Positions 8,968-15,999 of a stretch of 64,000 bases of DNA are shown here, in pieces; within the stretch, counting starts at the first letter, position 1, and every line of letters starts with the position of its first letter. The notes below the pieces were generated by a model. That model did not search any database. It saw only the letters and a list, made by a program, of their open reading frames with translations, and was not told the origin of the DNA. Made by a program: the position numbers and the translations under genes. Source of the DNA: Prauserella salsuginis (GTDB lineage: Bacteria > Actinomycetota > Actinomycetes > Mycobacteriales > Pseudonocardiaceae); contig NZ_JANBBF010000011.1 in the NCBI RefSeq assembly GCF_024648885.1, positions 372,001 to 436,000 of the forward strand, read 5' to 3'.

Positions 8968-10482
8968 CTAGACGGGTTCCTCCTCCTGCGTCTCCATCTC
9001 GGCCGCGCGCGGGTCGGGGCCGCTGTGCCGCAGCGACAGTAGGCCGCCGATGACCAGCGTGACGACCACGCCGAGCGGCACGTACCAGGGGAAGGCCAGG
9101 CCGACCTCCTCACCGTCCACGGTGAACGTGACACCCAGGACGAACACGGCGGCCACGACGACGGTGCACGCGAACGCGATGATCGCGTCGGTCTGCCGTG
9201 CCTTCTTGACGATCATGCCGAGGAAGAACGCGCCGAGCAGCGCACCGTAGGTGTAGCTGGCGATGCTCAGTCCGAGTTCGACGACCGGGGTGTCGGTGCT
9301 GGTGAACATCGAGGCGAACACGACGAACACGACCGCCCAGATGATCGTCCAGATCCGCGCCTGCTTGAGCATCACCGCGTCGGACATCTTCTTCTTCGTG
9401 AACCGCTCGTAAAGGTCGGCGATCGTCGACGTCGACAGCGAGTTCAGCGACGAGGAGATCGTCGACATGGCGGCGGAGAGGATGCCGGCGATGAGGATCC
9501 CGGACAGCCCGACGGGCAGTTCCTCGAGGATGAACCTGGGGAACAGGTCGTCCGGGTTGGCCAGGCCCAGCGCGTCGATGCTCTGCCCGCCGTAGAACGA
9601 GAACAGCATCGCACCGACCAGCAGGAACACCGCGAACTGGAAGAACACCACGACACCACTGGCGATCACGGCCTTCTGGCTGTCACGCACGTTCTTGCAC
9701 GCCAGCAGGCGCTGCACCATCAGCTGGTCGGCACCGTGCGAGGCCATCGCGAACAGCGCACCGCCGACGACCGCGGTGATGAACGCGTACTGGTCGGTGA
9801 TGATGTCGGAGCCGAACTCGAAGAGCTGGAACTTGCCCGCGTCGGCGAGCTCGCCGAACCAGCCGCTGGGCAGCTGGCCCGCCAGCACGAAGATCGCGGC
9901 GATGGCGCCGAGCACGTAGATGGCCATCTGGACGACGTCGACCCAGATGACGGCGCGGATGCCGCCGAAGTAGGTGTAGATGACCGCCACGAGCGCGATC
10001 GCGGCGATCACGACCCAGTACGACACGTCGAGGCCGATCCCGTCGAGCACGAGTTTGACCGGGATGGCCGTGGCGAACAGGCGAACGCCGTCCGCGAGCA
10101 GACGGGTGACCAGGAACGTCACCGAGGCGGTGCCCTGCAGTCCGCCACCGAAGCGCTTGCCGAGGAAGCCGTACGCGCTGACGAAGCCGCCTGCGTAGTA
10201 CTTGGGTAGCAGCACGAATGCGACGACGACGCGGCCGATGAGGTAGCCGATCGCCAGCTGTAGATACGTGATGTTGCCGAGGTAGGCAACGGTCGGCACG
10301 CTCAGCACGGTCAGCGTCGAGGTCTCCGTGGCGACGACCGAGAAGGTGACCGCCCACCAGGGCACCTTCCGGCTGCCGACGAAGTAGTCGTTCGACGATC
10401 GCTGCTTCCCGCTGAGCAGGATGCCCAGGATGGGCGTTCCCACCAGGAAGATCGCGATGATCGCGAGGTCCAGTGCGCGCAT
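8968..10482 (-). CDS. Sodium:solute symporter (SSS family), possible amino-sugar or anhydro-muropeptide sugar importer
   Basis: A 504-residue integral membrane protein of the SSS (LeuT-fold) family. Family features include an N-terminal helix LDLAIIAIFLVGTPILGILL, the segment ATETSTLTVLSVPTVAY and a later helix start SAAMSTISSSLNSLSTSTI that carries sodium-site Ser/Thr residues. About 13 membrane helices are expected. The ATG start is set by AGGAG a few bases upstream. It begins 9 bp after anmK, so the two are cotranscribed. That context suggests uptake of N-acetylmuramic acid, 1,6-anhydroMurNAc or a related sugar; the substrate is inference, since SSS members also carry sialic acid, sugars, proline and others. 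Confidence 0.85.
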   Translation of the reverse strand: MRALDLAIIAIFLVGTPILGILLSGKQRSSNDYFVGSRKVPWWAVTFSVVATETSTLTVLSVPTVAYLGNITYLQLAIGYLIGRVVVAFVLLPKYYAGGFVSAYGFLGKRFGGGLQGTASVTFLVTRLLADGVRLFATAIPVKLVLDGIGLDVSYWVVIAAIALVAVIYTYFGGIRAVIWVDVVQMAIYVLGAIAAIFVLAGQLPSGWFGELADAGKFQLFEFGSDIITDQYAFITAVVGGALFAMASHGADQLMVQRLLACKNVRDSQKAVIASGVVVFFQFAVFLLVGAMLFSFYGGQSIDALGLANPDDLFPRFILEELPVGLSGILIAGILSAAMSTISSSLNSLSTSTIADLYERFTKKKMSDAVMLKQARIWTIIWAVVFVVFASMFTSTDTPVVELGLSIASYTYGALLGAFFLGMIVKKARQTDAIIAFACTVVVAAVFVLGVTFTVDGEEVGLAFPWYVPLGVVVTLVIGGLLSLRHSGPDPRAAEMETQEEEPV

Positions 10483-10491
10483 TGGTCTCTC

Positions 10492-11724
10492 CTACCGTGT
10501 CTCGCGCGAGTTGGCCACCCTCAGCCGCGAAATCGGCGACGTCGGTGGGGTCGGAAGGGCGAGCCGTCGCTCACCAGGGGTGATGCTGCCGAGGACGCGT
10601 GGCCCGCGGGCGCCGGTGGCGCTGGGAACATTGCCCGCGGCGCCGTGCCACGACAGCCAGCCGAGCACGGCCGTCAGGTAGGCCTCCTTCGCGTCGGCGG
10701 GCAGCCCCAGCTCGTCGCTCCTGTGGACGACGAGACGGCGGCCCAACGCGCGCATCAGGGTCGGGTTGTGCACCCCGCCGCCCGAGGCGTACACGGTCGT
10801 GGCGCCGTGGCGGGCGCAGGCGTCGGCGATGGTGACGGCCGTGAGCTCGGTCAGCGTCGCCAGCAGGTCGGTGTCGCCGACCTGGGGCAGGCCGCCGAGT
10901 GCCGCGGCGAGGTATGTGCTGTGGAAATGCTCCTTGCCCGTCGACTTCGGCGGCGGGGCCGCGTAGTAAGGATCCGCGAGCAGCCGCTCGAGCAGGTCGG
11001 TGCGGACCGTGCCGGCCGCGGCGAGCGCACCGTCGACGTCACTGCGGGCGGCGCCGCCGGTGACCTGGGCGGCCGCGAGGTCGAGCAGCGCGTTGCCGGG
11101 GCCGGTGTCGTAGGCGAGCACGTCGCCGACCGCGCCGGAGCCGTCGTCGGAGTTGTTGCCGGAGCCGCCGGGCGGCACGACGGTGATGTTGCTGATGCCG
11201 CCGATGTTCAGTGCGACCGTCGGGGATCCCGCCCGGTCGGCGACCGTGCGCAGCAGCAGCGCGTCGAGCGTGCTCGCGAGCGGCGCGCCGTGACCACCGG
11301 CGGCGACGTCGCGCACCCGCAGGTCGGAGACGACGGGACGGCCGGTGCGCTCGGCGATCCAGGCGGGTTGGCCGAGCTGCAGCGTGCCGAGTGCCCGGCC
11401 CTCGTCGATCCAGTGGAAGACCGTCTGGCCGAGCGAGGCGACCACGTCGACGGGGCCGGCATGTGCCTCGGCGTGGCTGACGGCGTCGGCGAACTCCTGG
11501 CCGACGTGGGTGTCGAGTTTGGCGAGTTCTTCGGCGCTGCACGGTGCGGGCGGCAGCGCGGCGAGCAGTCGTGCCCGCAGCTCGTCGGGGTAGGGCAGCT
11601 CCCACTGGCCACACGGCGTGAGGACGAGCTCGCCGTCCGACTCGGCCAGTTCGGCGATGGCGACGTCGATGCCGTCCACGGAGGTGCCGGACAGTAATCC
11701 GGCGATACGGAGCGAAGGGGACAC
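10492..11724 (-). CDS. anmK: Anhydro-N-acetylmuramic acid kinase
   Basis: AnmK phosphorylates 1,6-anhydroMurNAc, opening the anhydro ring to give MurNAc-6-phosphate for cell-wall recycling. The start of the protein has the family motif GLLSGTSVDGIDVAI (residues 9-23); later segments include LNIGGISNITVV and DTGPGNALLD, part of the sugar-kinase fold. At 410 residues it is slightly longer than the usual 370-390. The GTG start has no ribosome site; a DasR-like sequence begins 4 bp upstream. MurQ, the next enzyme in Gram-negative recycling, is not nearby. The downstream symporter probably supplies substrate. Confidence 0.93.
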   Translation of the reverse strand: MSPSLRIAGLLSGTSVDGIDVAIAELAESDGELVLTPCGQWELPYPDELRARLLAALPPAPCSAEELAKLDTHVGQEFADAVSHAEAHAGPVDVVASLGQTVFHWIDEGRALGTLQLGQPAWIAERTGRPVVSDLRVRDVAAGGHGAPLASTLDALLLRTVADRAGSPTVALNIGGISNITVVPPGGSGNNSDDGSGAVGDVLAYDTGPGNALLDLAAAQVTGGAARSDVDGALAAAGTVRTDLLERLLADPYYAAPPPKSTGKEHFHSTYLAAALGGLPQVGDTDLLATLTELTAVTIADACARHGATTVYASGGGVHNPTLMRALGRRLVVHRSDELGLPADAKEAYLTAVLGWLSWHGAAGNVPSATGARGPRVLGSITPGERRLALPTPPTSPISRLRVANSRETR

Positions 11725-11727
11725 GGG

Positions 11728-11743
11728 AGTGGTCTAGTCCAAT
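11728..11743 (-). promoter_or_regulatory. Candidate DasR (dre) operator upstream of anmK
   Basis: AGTGGTCTAGTCCAAT matches the Streptomyces dre consensus (A-C/G-TGGTCTAGACCA-C/G-T) except at two positions, A to T in the right arm and the weak penultimate base. A second half-site, CTGGTCTG, begins at 11747. The element lies next to the anmK start codon, where a bound GntR-family repressor would block expression. DasR senses GlcN-6-P and controls amino-sugar uptake, which suits the genes. No dasR gene is in the window. Confidence 0.6.
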
Positions 11744-11985
11744 CAGCTGGTCTGTGCAACACGTTCGGTGGGTACCTGGCCTAGATCTATGCGAGACCGT
11801 TAACTTCCCACGCCGCGAGCCCTGACGCACCGTCCGACGCCCGGAGCGTTGCGCCGAGCGTCGAGCCGGGCGTCCGGGTTCGGCGCTACCGCGCTCCGGA
11901 CGGACCCGGGCCGGTGGAGACGGGCCGGCCGGGGCGCGGGGCGAGCCGTGTCAACCGGATCGGAGGCCAGTGGGAGGATGGCGGC
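11744..11985. promoter_or_regulatory. Divergent upstream region of anmK and ftsY
   Basis: The 240 bp between the candidate operator and ftsY hold the ribosome site GGGAGG (11972-11977) for ftsY and presumably promoters in both directions. ACCTGGCCTAGATCTATGCGAG (11777-11794 region) is the only AT-richer patch. No other gene is supported. Confidence 0.35.
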
Positions 11986-13678: not shown

Positions 13679-14341
13679 ATGTCCCGTCTGGCCCGTGTCG
13701 TCTTCGTGCCGGTCGCCTGCGCGGCGCTGGCGTTGACAGGGTGCTCGTTCGAGTTCTCCGTCGGGTCGACGGTCGGCAAGGACGAGCTCGAGAAACAGGT
13801 CATGGGCGCCCTGTCCGAACAGGACCGGCGTCCGAAGGACGTGACCTGCCCCGACGACCTCGAACCGGAGGTCGATGCGACGACGACGTGCACCTCGACC
13901 GGGCAGGACGGTGTCCAACGCGATGCGAAGGTGACGGTCACCGAGGTCGGCGAGGACGACCGGGTTCAGTTCGACGTCGTACTCTCGGGCGGTGACGGTG
14001 ACGGGCAGGCCGGCGGCGACCGGTCCACGGCACCCGACGCCACGCCGGCAGGCGACGACGGCCGGGCGTCCGACGCGCCCGCCGGCGACGAGATCGACCG
14101 GGCCGTGCTGGCGCGGGAGGCTGCTCGGTCGCTCAGCCGCGAGGCCGGGCAGCACCTCGGTGAGGTCGGATGCCCGGAACACGTCGAAGCGACGGTGGGC
14201 GCCAGCACGCGCTGCGTGCTCACTAACCCGGCGGGAACCCGGTTCGGCGTCACCGTCGAGGTGACCGAGGTCGACGCGGAAACGCAGAACGCGAACTTCC
14301 ACGTCCAGGTCGACGCGCAGCCGCTGAGTGGCGGTCGCTGA
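13679..14341 (+). CDS. Lipoprotein with two DUF4333 domains
   Basis: A 220-residue lipoprotein: a signal peptide ends in the lipobox ALALTGC, with Cys22 as the lipidated residue. Two DUF4333 copies follow, each with a DELEKQV-like helix start, a conserved pair of cysteines (TCPDDLEPEVDATTTC in the first, GCPEHVEATVGASTRC in the second) and a beta-rich end. They are joined by a Gly/Asp/Ala linker (about residues 103-140). The ATG at 13679 follows GAGGAG with 8-bp spacing; a longer frame begins upstream without a signal sequence. First of four DUF4333 genes in a row. Function unknown; the domain is known from actinobacterial surface lipoproteins. Confidence 0.85.
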   Translation: MSRLARVVFVPVACAALALTGCSFEFSVGSTVGKDELEKQVMGALSEQDRRPKDVTCPDDLEPEVDATTTCTSTGQDGVQRDAKVTVTEVGEDDRVQFDVVLSGGDGDGQAGGDRSTAPDATPAGDDGRASDAPAGDEIDRAVLAREAARSLSREAGQHLGEVGCPEHVEATVGASTRCVLTNPAGTRFGVTVEVTEVDAETQNANFHVQVDAQPLSGGR

Positions 14342-14530
14342 CCGGGCGGAGCACGTCAGCCGGCCGAACTGAGGCGGGCGCGGCGATGCGGCGGATACGC
14401 CGCTGGTAGCTGCTGCTCGTGTGTGACCTGTAACACCGATGTGTCAGGGAACGAGAAGCGCACATGTGCGGTCTGACCGAAACATGAGGTTTCGGCATCC
14501 CGCCGGAGCCGCCGCCCTCAGGAGATCGTC

Positions 14531-14827
14531 ATGCCCCGCGTGTCGCGCGCTCCGGCCCTGTCGGTTGCCGGCGTTTCCGTTCTCGGGCTGACGGCGTGTT
14601 CGGCGCACGTCGAGACGGACGAGCTGGAGAAACAGGTGGCGACGACACTCGTCCAGCGGGGCGACGTGGAGGTCGACAGCGTGCACTGCCTCGAGGAGCT
14701 CGACGCAGAATCGGATGCCACGACAGCGTGCAGTGTGACCGTCAAGGGTGGACGGAAGCTCACGGCGAACGTCACGGTGACCGACACCGGAGGTGACCTC
14801 GTCCAGTTCATGATCGATACCGAGTAG
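14531..14827 (+). CDS. DUF4333 lipoprotein (second of four)
   Basis: A 98-residue protein with a short signal peptide, lipobox LGLTAC (Cys23) and one DUF4333 domain (TDELEKQVATTL... with VHCLEELDAESDATTAC). AGGAG at 14519-14523 sets the ATG. Its leader and first codons (from CAGGAGATCGTCATGCCCCG onward) are almost identical to those of the fourth copy at 15691, which points to a recent duplication. No enzyme motif is present; a small anchored binding or envelope role is only a guess. Confidence 0.82.
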   Translation: MPRVSRAPALSVAGVSVLGLTACSAHVETDELEKQVATTLVQRGDVEVDSVHCLEELDAESDATTACSVTVKGGRKLTANVTVTDTGGDLVQFMIDTE

Positions 14828-14977
14828 TGCGCCTCGCCGTAGCCGTCCGCCCACTCCGCGTCAGGCCCCGCGGATGCGCGCACACGCGCGGGCACGGATT
14901 CGGACCCGATTGCGGTGCGGCACAGTCCTCAGGACGCCCTCGTTTCTGCCCTCTCGTTTCTGCACTGAAGGAGACCC

Positions 14978-15328
14978 ATGTCCACGACCGCTCGTTTCGT
15001 TGCTGCAGCTGCCGCCTGTCTGACGTTGGGGCTGGCCGCGTGCTCCGCCGAAGTGTCGGTCTCCACGGGCCCGCAGATCGAACAGGGTGAGCTCGAGAAA
15101 CAGCTGCTGGCGTCGGTGACGGCGGAGGTCGGACAGCGACCGAAGGATCTCACGTGCCCGGGTGACGTCGATGCCGAGAAGGGCGCGAGGACCGAATGCA
15201 CCCTGGTTGCCCCGGACGGAACCGCCGCGCCGGTGTCGGTGACCGTGACGCGTGTCGACGCCGACTCCGGTGATTTCGGGGTCGACTGGGAGGTCGGTCA
15301 GCCGGAATCGGCCACCGCCGACTCTTGA
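14978..15328 (+). CDS. DUF4333 lipoprotein (third of four)
   Basis: A 116-residue lipoprotein with signal peptide, lipobox LGLAAC (Cys22) and one DUF4333 domain: GELEKQLLASV, then LTCPGDVDAEKGARTEC and a beta-rich C-terminus. The ATG follows GAAGGAGA. The mature N-terminus (SAEVSVSTG) and the text RPKDLTCP match the two-domain paralogue (RPKDVTCP) better than the other copies, so copies one and three form one subgroup. Confidence 0.82.
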   Translation: MSTTARFVAAAAACLTLGLAACSAEVSVSTGPQIEQGELEKQLLASVTAEVGQRPKDLTCPGDVDAEKGARTECTLVAPDGTAAPVSVTVTRVDADSGDFGVDWEVGQPESATADS

Positions 15329-15690
15329 TTCGGGCGCAGGCCGCTCGCGGTCCGAAGTAGACGGCGGCCTCGGCCCGCCGGTGCGACGGCCCGGCCTCGC
15401 GACGACAACCCGCTCCGGCCGGACGTGTATTCGTCATGTCGGATTGCGGCGCGGTGCGAGATTGCGGCGCGGTGCGAGATTGCGGCGCTGTGTGGATTGC
15501 GGCGCTGTGTGGATTGCGGCGCTGTGTGGATTGCGGCGCTGTGTGGATTGCGGAGCCGCGGGGGATGAGATGCCGTGTGGGATGGGACACCACGTAGCAA
15601 CGGAACGCGCCGGGCGACTGTGAAGTCGGAGTGAAGTATGAGGCTGCGGCTGTCCGGCCGGAGCTCCCTTCACGTCTTCAGGAGATCGTC
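15329..15690. repeat. Intergenic region with six-unit tandem repeat (15443-15546)
   Basis: This 362-bp gap has no credible gene. Six adjacent units occupy 15443-15546: two of 18 bp (ATTGCGGCGCGGTGCGAG), then four identical 17-bp units (ATTGCGGCGCTGTGTGG). A partial seventh follows. The unit closely resembles the TGCGGGGCGCTGTG repeats at 38.65 kb. The region from 15600 to 15690 leads into the fourth DUF4333 gene and ends with its AGGAG ribosome site. The array could fold into structures or act as a slippage-prone spacer; no function is known. Confidence 0.8.
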
Positions 15691-15999
15691 ATGCCCCGCG
15701 TGTCCCGTGTTCTTGCACTGTCCGTCCTCGGCGTCGCCGTGTTCGGACTGGCCGGGTGCTCGATGTACGTCGAGAAGGACGACCTCGAGGAGCAGGTGTC
15801 GTCGTCGATCTCGCAGCAGGGCATGCCGGTGGACAGCGTCGACTGCCCCGACGATCTGGACGGCGAGGTGGACGCCACGACGACGTGCACGGTGACCGTG
15901 CAGGGCGGTACCGAGGTCAAGACCGATATCACCGTGACCAGTGTCGACGGTGACGAGGTTCGCTTCGACATCACGCCGCAGCAGACCGCGGGGGAGTGA
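15691..15999 (+). CDS. DUF4333 lipoprotein (fourth of four)
   Basis: A 102-residue lipoprotein with lipobox FGLAGC (Cys23) and one DUF4333 domain (KDDLEEQVSSSI..., VDCPDDLDGEVDATTTC, then alternating beta residues). The ATG at 15691 follows AGGAG; an upstream ATG at 15631 is in frame but would precede the signal peptide with 20 unlikely residues. The start region is a near copy of that of the second gene. It converges on the IclR gene with a very strong hairpin between. Confidence 0.82.
   Translation: MPRVSRVLALSVLGVAVFGLAGCSMYVEKDDLEEQVSSSISQQGMPVDSVDCPDDLDGEVDATTTCTVTVQGGTEVKTDITVTSVDGDEVRFDITPQQTAGE

Follow-up and report, generated by a model that had tools for sequence, protein, structure and literature searches.

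Both the dismantled cell wall and chitin are believed to supply the amino sugars to which the regulator DasR responds. MurNAc salvage clusters of the E. coli type, with a MurR/RpiR regulator and murQ, serve the same pathway as the genes described here, and a Bacillus version of this cluster with a MurR/RpiR regulator and murQ exists as well. The DasR of Streptomyces coelicolor binds a dre with the core TGGTCTAGTCCA as efficiently as it binds the dasA dre (PMC4398421). DasR is released by GlcNAc-6-P and GlcN-6-P (PMC12680351), and the pathway of AnmK, MurQ and NagA would yield these two sugar phosphates (PMC13041923). In each half of its site, the Bacillus homologue NagR (YvoA), whose targets are nagAB and nagP, touches G-7, G-5 and G-4 and no other base, leaving the inner six bases without base-specific contact (PMC4333415).

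The locus in this report lies in a window of 64,000 nt (the whole stretch of DNA that was analysed) from the genome of a Prauserella relative (Pseudonocardiaceae), called the host below; among named anmK loci, those closest to its own come from Prauserella. It has an anmK gene, a symporter gene and, just upstream of anmK, a 16-bp site that is very probably the dre operator of the host DasR ortholog, controlling anmK and the symporter gene as one operon. This was the reading of the initial annotation, and the sequence comparisons below support it; with its predicted operator, the operon would be a well-supported addition to the DasR regulon, and not a new kind of system. The features are as follows.

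8968-10482, minus strand: SSS-family sodium/solute symporter, 504 aa (PF00474, TIGR00813, PDB 5nv9)
10492-11724, minus strand: anmK, 1,6-anhydro-N-acetylmuramic acid kinase, GTG start, 410 aa (PF03702, NF007146)
11728-11743: dre-like candidate operator, AGTGGTCTAGTCCAAT on the plus strand, which is ATTGGACTAGACCACT in the anmK sense, 14/16 match
11731-11736, minus strand: putative promoter-like -10 hexamer TAGACC, inside the operator, spacing and surroundings conserved
11748-11754, plus strand: second half-site TGGTCTG named in the initial annotation, in 1/7 genus genomes
11754-11759, minus strand: putative promoter-like -35 hexamer TTGCAC, with a conserved TTGC at a constant 17/18 nt from the TA
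13679-14341, 14531-14827, 14978-15328 and 15691-15999, plus strand: DUF4333 genes

The anmK product matches PF03702 with an E value of 2e-96 (323.7 bits against a cut-off of 24), and its 551.7 bits against the NF007146 cut-off of 440 place it in the AnmK family. The neighboring gene, 9 nt away and also on the minus strand, encodes a protein that matches PF00474 (E = 2e-33) and TIGR00813 (200.7 bits, cut-off 184). The PF03702 and PF00474 matches uphold both gene identities in the AnmK-symporter pair originally proposed. The best PDB match of the symporter is 5nv9, titled putative sodium:solute symporter, which we take to be a sialic-acid transporter. The symporter gene is directly 3′ of anmK in all 12 named Pseudonocardiaceae loci (L006-L017), and a search for it in 29 other anmK loci gave two weak, distant matches at most.

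Elsewhere in the window, four short lipoprotein-like genes stand in a row on the plus strand (13679-15999); all are DUF4333, and the row is a local family expansion downstream of ftsY. A tandem repeat at 15441-15553, with 6.5 copies of the 17-bp unit GGATTGCGGCGCTGTGT, is found between two of these genes.

The site AGTGGTCTAGTCCAAT scores 14/16 against the dre consensus ASTGGTCTAGACCAST and stops 3 nt short of the anmK start codon, a GTG at 11724, much as the initial annotation had it in describing a near match that adjoins the anmK start. The consensus written as A(G/C)TGGTCTAGACCA(G/C)T near a gene start is likewise found at anmK, with this same score and distance, and the contact bases G-5 and G-4 are present in both halves (TTGG...CCAC). 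The core GGACTAGACCAC is kept at anmK in all seven genomes of the host genus. No other match to ASTGGTCTAGACCAST with three or fewer mismatches occurs in the 64,000-nt window; at least one such match is also present in 28 of 100 shuffled windows, so the 16-mer match by itself is not significant, and the case for a predicted operator at 11728-11743 is carried by its position and conservation. The half-site TGGTCTG, proposed to lie beside the operator, does exist in the sequence, but it is not conserved; because its 7-mer is at that place in the host alone among the seven genus genomes, it is probably a chance occurrence and not part of the operator.

Across the host genome, nine places among the matches listed have at most one mismatch to TGGTCTAGACCA. 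Four are at the dasR/NagB-like isomerase genes, nagA, a PTS gene and anmK, and five are in or near reading frames with no evident amino-sugar link, for which reason the genome count of dre-like sites was rejected as proof. The scan pattern built from the AGTGGTCTAGTCCAAT site itself was counted as no evidence.

A dasR gene in the host had been named as a check on the DasR reading, and an ortholog is present at C3:648966-649718. It is the best of five UTRA-domain genes; its product has S. coelicolor DasR as its best PDB match (E = 6e-87) and is the only host protein that matches DasR at 1e-40. The two contact arginines and the wing glycine are kept in it, by a hand count on the alignment that assumes a three-residue tag offset. 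The gene is back to back with genes whose products resemble a NagB-II isomerase and a NagK kinase (the matches fall short of the curated cut-offs), with a dre between. In 28 of 29 genomes the 400 nt upstream of dasR hold a dre of at least 12/16, the exception being G011. In the host, TGGTCTGGACCA immediately precedes nagA. Of 30 nagA loci, 19 carry a site scoring 12/16 or more; in the other 11, where none of 12/16 was seen, nagA may lie inside operons. At the host PTS gene, whose best match is PTS-II-BC-nag (below cut-off), AGTGGTCTAGACCGGA ends 148 nt before the ATG.

Two further features of the host genome were noted. A gene for a SigE-family sigma factor immediately precedes nagA in the same orientation (L048 9866-10609), and the MurNAc salvage cluster (L246 4806-10000) encodes a NamZ exo-muramidase, a beta-lactamase-fold protein, an RpiR-type regulator and murQ. 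A dre at this murQ was considered and rejected, the best score in 10 kb being 11/16.

The element is also kept upstream of anmK in relatives, the other check that had been put forward. Of 200 genomes of the Pseudonocardiaceae, a family rich in antibiotic producers, 160 have anmK, and 110 upstream regions chosen by score and genus spread were examined. In 69 of the 110, a dre score of at least 12/16 occurs within the 60 nt that precede the anmK match, compared to 0/110 in a 60-nt stretch further upstream and 7/2200 shuffles. The regions were also searched for a module consisting of an anchor, TTG[CTA]NN with TA 16-19 nt later, with the best anchor taken per sequence and the same rule applied to the controls; six contact bases were scored, i.e., G-7, G-5, G-4 and their mirror positions, as contacted by NagR. 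The anchor was found in 103 regions, and the module with at least five of the six contact bases in 89, compared to 0/110 in a same-size stretch further upstream and 4/2200 shuffles.

When each of 34 genera is represented by a single genome, TTGC, the GTG before the TA and the GACCAC after it are highly conserved, and the stretch between is poorly conserved. The conserved positions of the anmK sites are the NagR contact positions (contacts from PMC4333415). The sites fall into two main forms. One, found in the host genus and several other genera, is GTGGACTAGACCAC or a close variant; the second is GTGGAATAGACCAC or GTGCAATAGACCAC. GTGGAATAGACCAC and GTGGACTAGACCAC differ solely in the inner six bases, and the GTGC form has lost one contact base as well. 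None of the 103 anchored sites is a full palindrome, and the upstream half is never a perfect dre half. In genus g31 the element is degraded, since all five examined genomes have dasR yet only two to four of the contact bases. None of 20 anmK loci from other families of the order exceeds 10/16. Because none of seven Streptomyces loci reaches 12/16 (an eighth, L045, whose match begins at residue 252, was left out), the predicted wiring is one seen in the sampled Pseudonocardiaceae and not in the model genus of DasR.

Similar sites occur at chitin genes in relatives, where 18 palindrome sites were chosen by hand among the matches listed. Six asymmetric GTGGACTAGACCAC sites comprise two before GH18 genes, one at a CBM5/12 gene, one at a gene with no Pfam match and two away from chitin genes; six symmetric GTGGTCTAGACCAC sites comprise four at GH18 genes, one at a protein with no Pfam match and one not at a chitin gene. 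The asymmetric 14-mer of the anmK sites is thus also found before two GH18 chitinase genes.

DasR is favored as the reader of the anmK site because the core of that site is bound in vitro by the S. coelicolor protein (PMC4398421). An unlikely alternative is that a different GntR/HutC-family regulator uses the element. Regulators of this family share a GG...CC half-site logic, the anmK sites have a conserved asymmetry of their own, and the host has the four further UTRA-domain genes. Genome G034, which is without a DasR-like match at E 1e-20, nonetheless keeps the element in degraded form with five of six contact bases. Against this, binding of the core by S. coelicolor DasR is proven (PMC4398421), the same 14-mer precedes the two GH18 genes, and a single host protein matches DasR at 1e-40. 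The distribution of the element may also favor DasR: when genomes with a strong DasR match, plus G060 (gene split over two contigs), are taken as dasR-bearing, the module is present in 88 of 104 family genomes with dasR and in 1 of the 6 that lack it (Fisher p = 9e-4), a contrast that phylogeny confounds. None of 20 genomes from other families of the order has the module, and their best DasR-like proteins are at most 43% identical; this comparison is also confounded by lineage.

The genomes that have no close dasR offer a second arrangement, which counts toward the other-regulator alternative. In G027, G041, G081 and G138, which are four of the six family genomes without dasR, and in G235, one of the 20 genomes from other families, anmK has a GntR gene at a distance of about 2 kb, and the product of this gene shares 38-44% identity with DasR. 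The loci of these five genomes (L267-L271) all include murQ and an SSS symporter gene, and three include a nagA-like gene; the gene order in G027 is GntR, a BadF-type kinase-like gene, murQ, anmK and SSS. The dre-promoter module was not found at anmK in these clusters. With the GntR gene beside it there, anmK would appear to be under another HutC-type regulator in such genomes. Because these five GntR-murQ-anmK-SSS loci are in genomes without a close dasR, anmK and the symporter gene can be said, on comparative grounds, to travel together, beside their own GntR gene in genomes that lack dasR and with a dre in genomes that have it. It is likely that the regulator was swapped between lineages, local in some and DasR in others. 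Since the symporter stays with anmK in both regulatory settings and with murQ in one, we nominate it as a putative importer of (anhydro)MurNAc.

Returning to the host site and its reading as a DasR operator, the module also keeps a fixed distance to the gene start. Among 96 loci with at least four contact bases, the spacer from TTGC to TA is 17 nt (65 loci) or 18 nt (31 loci), and the gap between the hexamer and the start codon is 6, 7 or 8 nt in 41, 33 and 17 loci, respectively (91/96; the other five undetermined). The TA of the -10 hexamer is invariant among anchored loci by construction of the search. The TAG within the site is an in-frame stop before the anmK start, so that the GTG at 11724 is the only start possible before the conserved AnmK N terminus, and no Shine-Dalgarno sequence was seen in the few bases between this TAG and the GTG. 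With a start codon 6-8 nt after the hexamer, anmK is probably leaderless, judging from this geometry, and DasR would sit on its -10 box. We describe the promoter as inferred because the hexamers are weak (TTGCAC is a weak match to TTGACA) and a promoter consensus scan found none. The promoter-like pair, operator and start codon appear to form one fixed module. The initial annotation had missed that the site overlaps what resembles the -10 element of a gene that is apparently leaderless.

This geometry also lends some color to the view that the conserved block is a promoter only and its likeness to dre incidental, in that TTGC and TA are spaced as -35 and -10 hexamers are, with the start codon at a constant 6-8 nt. 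We regard that view as very improbable, since the GTG before TA and the GACCAC after it are conserved across 34 genera though no promoter needs them, these are the NagR contact bases, and the -10 hexamer keeps a C where promoters favor T. A chance match, for which the 28 shuffled windows might speak, was rejected as having practically no probability, given conservation at the same place in 89/110 relatives compared to 4/2200 shuffles.

The mechanism that we propose for the DasR operator takes core recognition, base contacts and sugar-phosphate release by analogy from the published Streptomyces and Bacillus work. A DasR dimer on 11728-11743 would cover the -10 region, with the transcript start at or next to the anmK GTG, and would block RNA polymerase, giving repression in the host. 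A rise in GlcN-6-P or GlcNAc-6-P would cause DasR to release the operator, and the anmK-symporter operon would then import and phosphorylate (anhydro)MurNAc. MurQ and NagA would convert the product to GlcNAc-6-P and GlcN-6-P, the inducers, and because the products of AnmK, MurQ and NagA are the sugar phosphates that release DasR, a positive loop may be closed.

With a conserved dre in front of an operon for anhydromuramic-acid salvage, peptidoglycan turnover would be wired directly to the DasR switch. Among the papers searched, none contained both DasR and AnmK and two contained DasR together with murQ; the titles and abstract openings gave no report of DasR control of anmK. What would be new here is a predicted regulon member with a notable promoter geometry, together with a likely regulator swap between lineages. 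The complete picture, to which we give an even chance of being correct, is that in most sampled Pseudonocardiaceae DasR controls a cassette of anmK and an SSS importer, while in relatives lacking a close dasR this cassette belongs to a murQ cluster that carries a DasR-like GntR gene of its own; that the operator stays imperfect and overlaps the -10 box of a leaderless promoter; and that the cell monitors its wall turnover by way of the chitin/GlcNAc switch, in a loop of positive feedback.

Compared with the E. coli-type salvage system, the host has one such cluster (L246), which is without a dre, whereas anmK and the symporter gene lie elsewhere in the genome with one. The L267-L271 clusters resemble the host in their anmK, SSS symporter, murQ and DasR-like GntR genes, and they differ in that the regulator is encoded beside the genes it would control and in the absence of the dre-promoter module at anmK. 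Bacillus NagR belongs to the same HutC subfamily and uses the same contact bases, and its natural dre sites are imperfect, as are the anmK sites here; anmK is not named as a target in the available part of that report (PMC4333415). The closest likeness is to the S. coelicolor DasR regulon (PMC4398421), which shares the 16-bp imperfect palindrome, an orthologous regulator with its own dre and the amino-sugar targets (nagA and PTS, with chitinases in relatives here). Its scr5239 dre has a 12-bp core identical to that of the anmK site, and an anmK-SSS target is not mentioned in the available text of that paper, in which the words muramic and symporter occur nowhere (PMC4398421). The Streptomyces regulon differs from the present one in the anmK loci: the seven examined there lack a 12/16 site, and the host locus carries the predicted operator on the -10 element of a likely leaderless gene.
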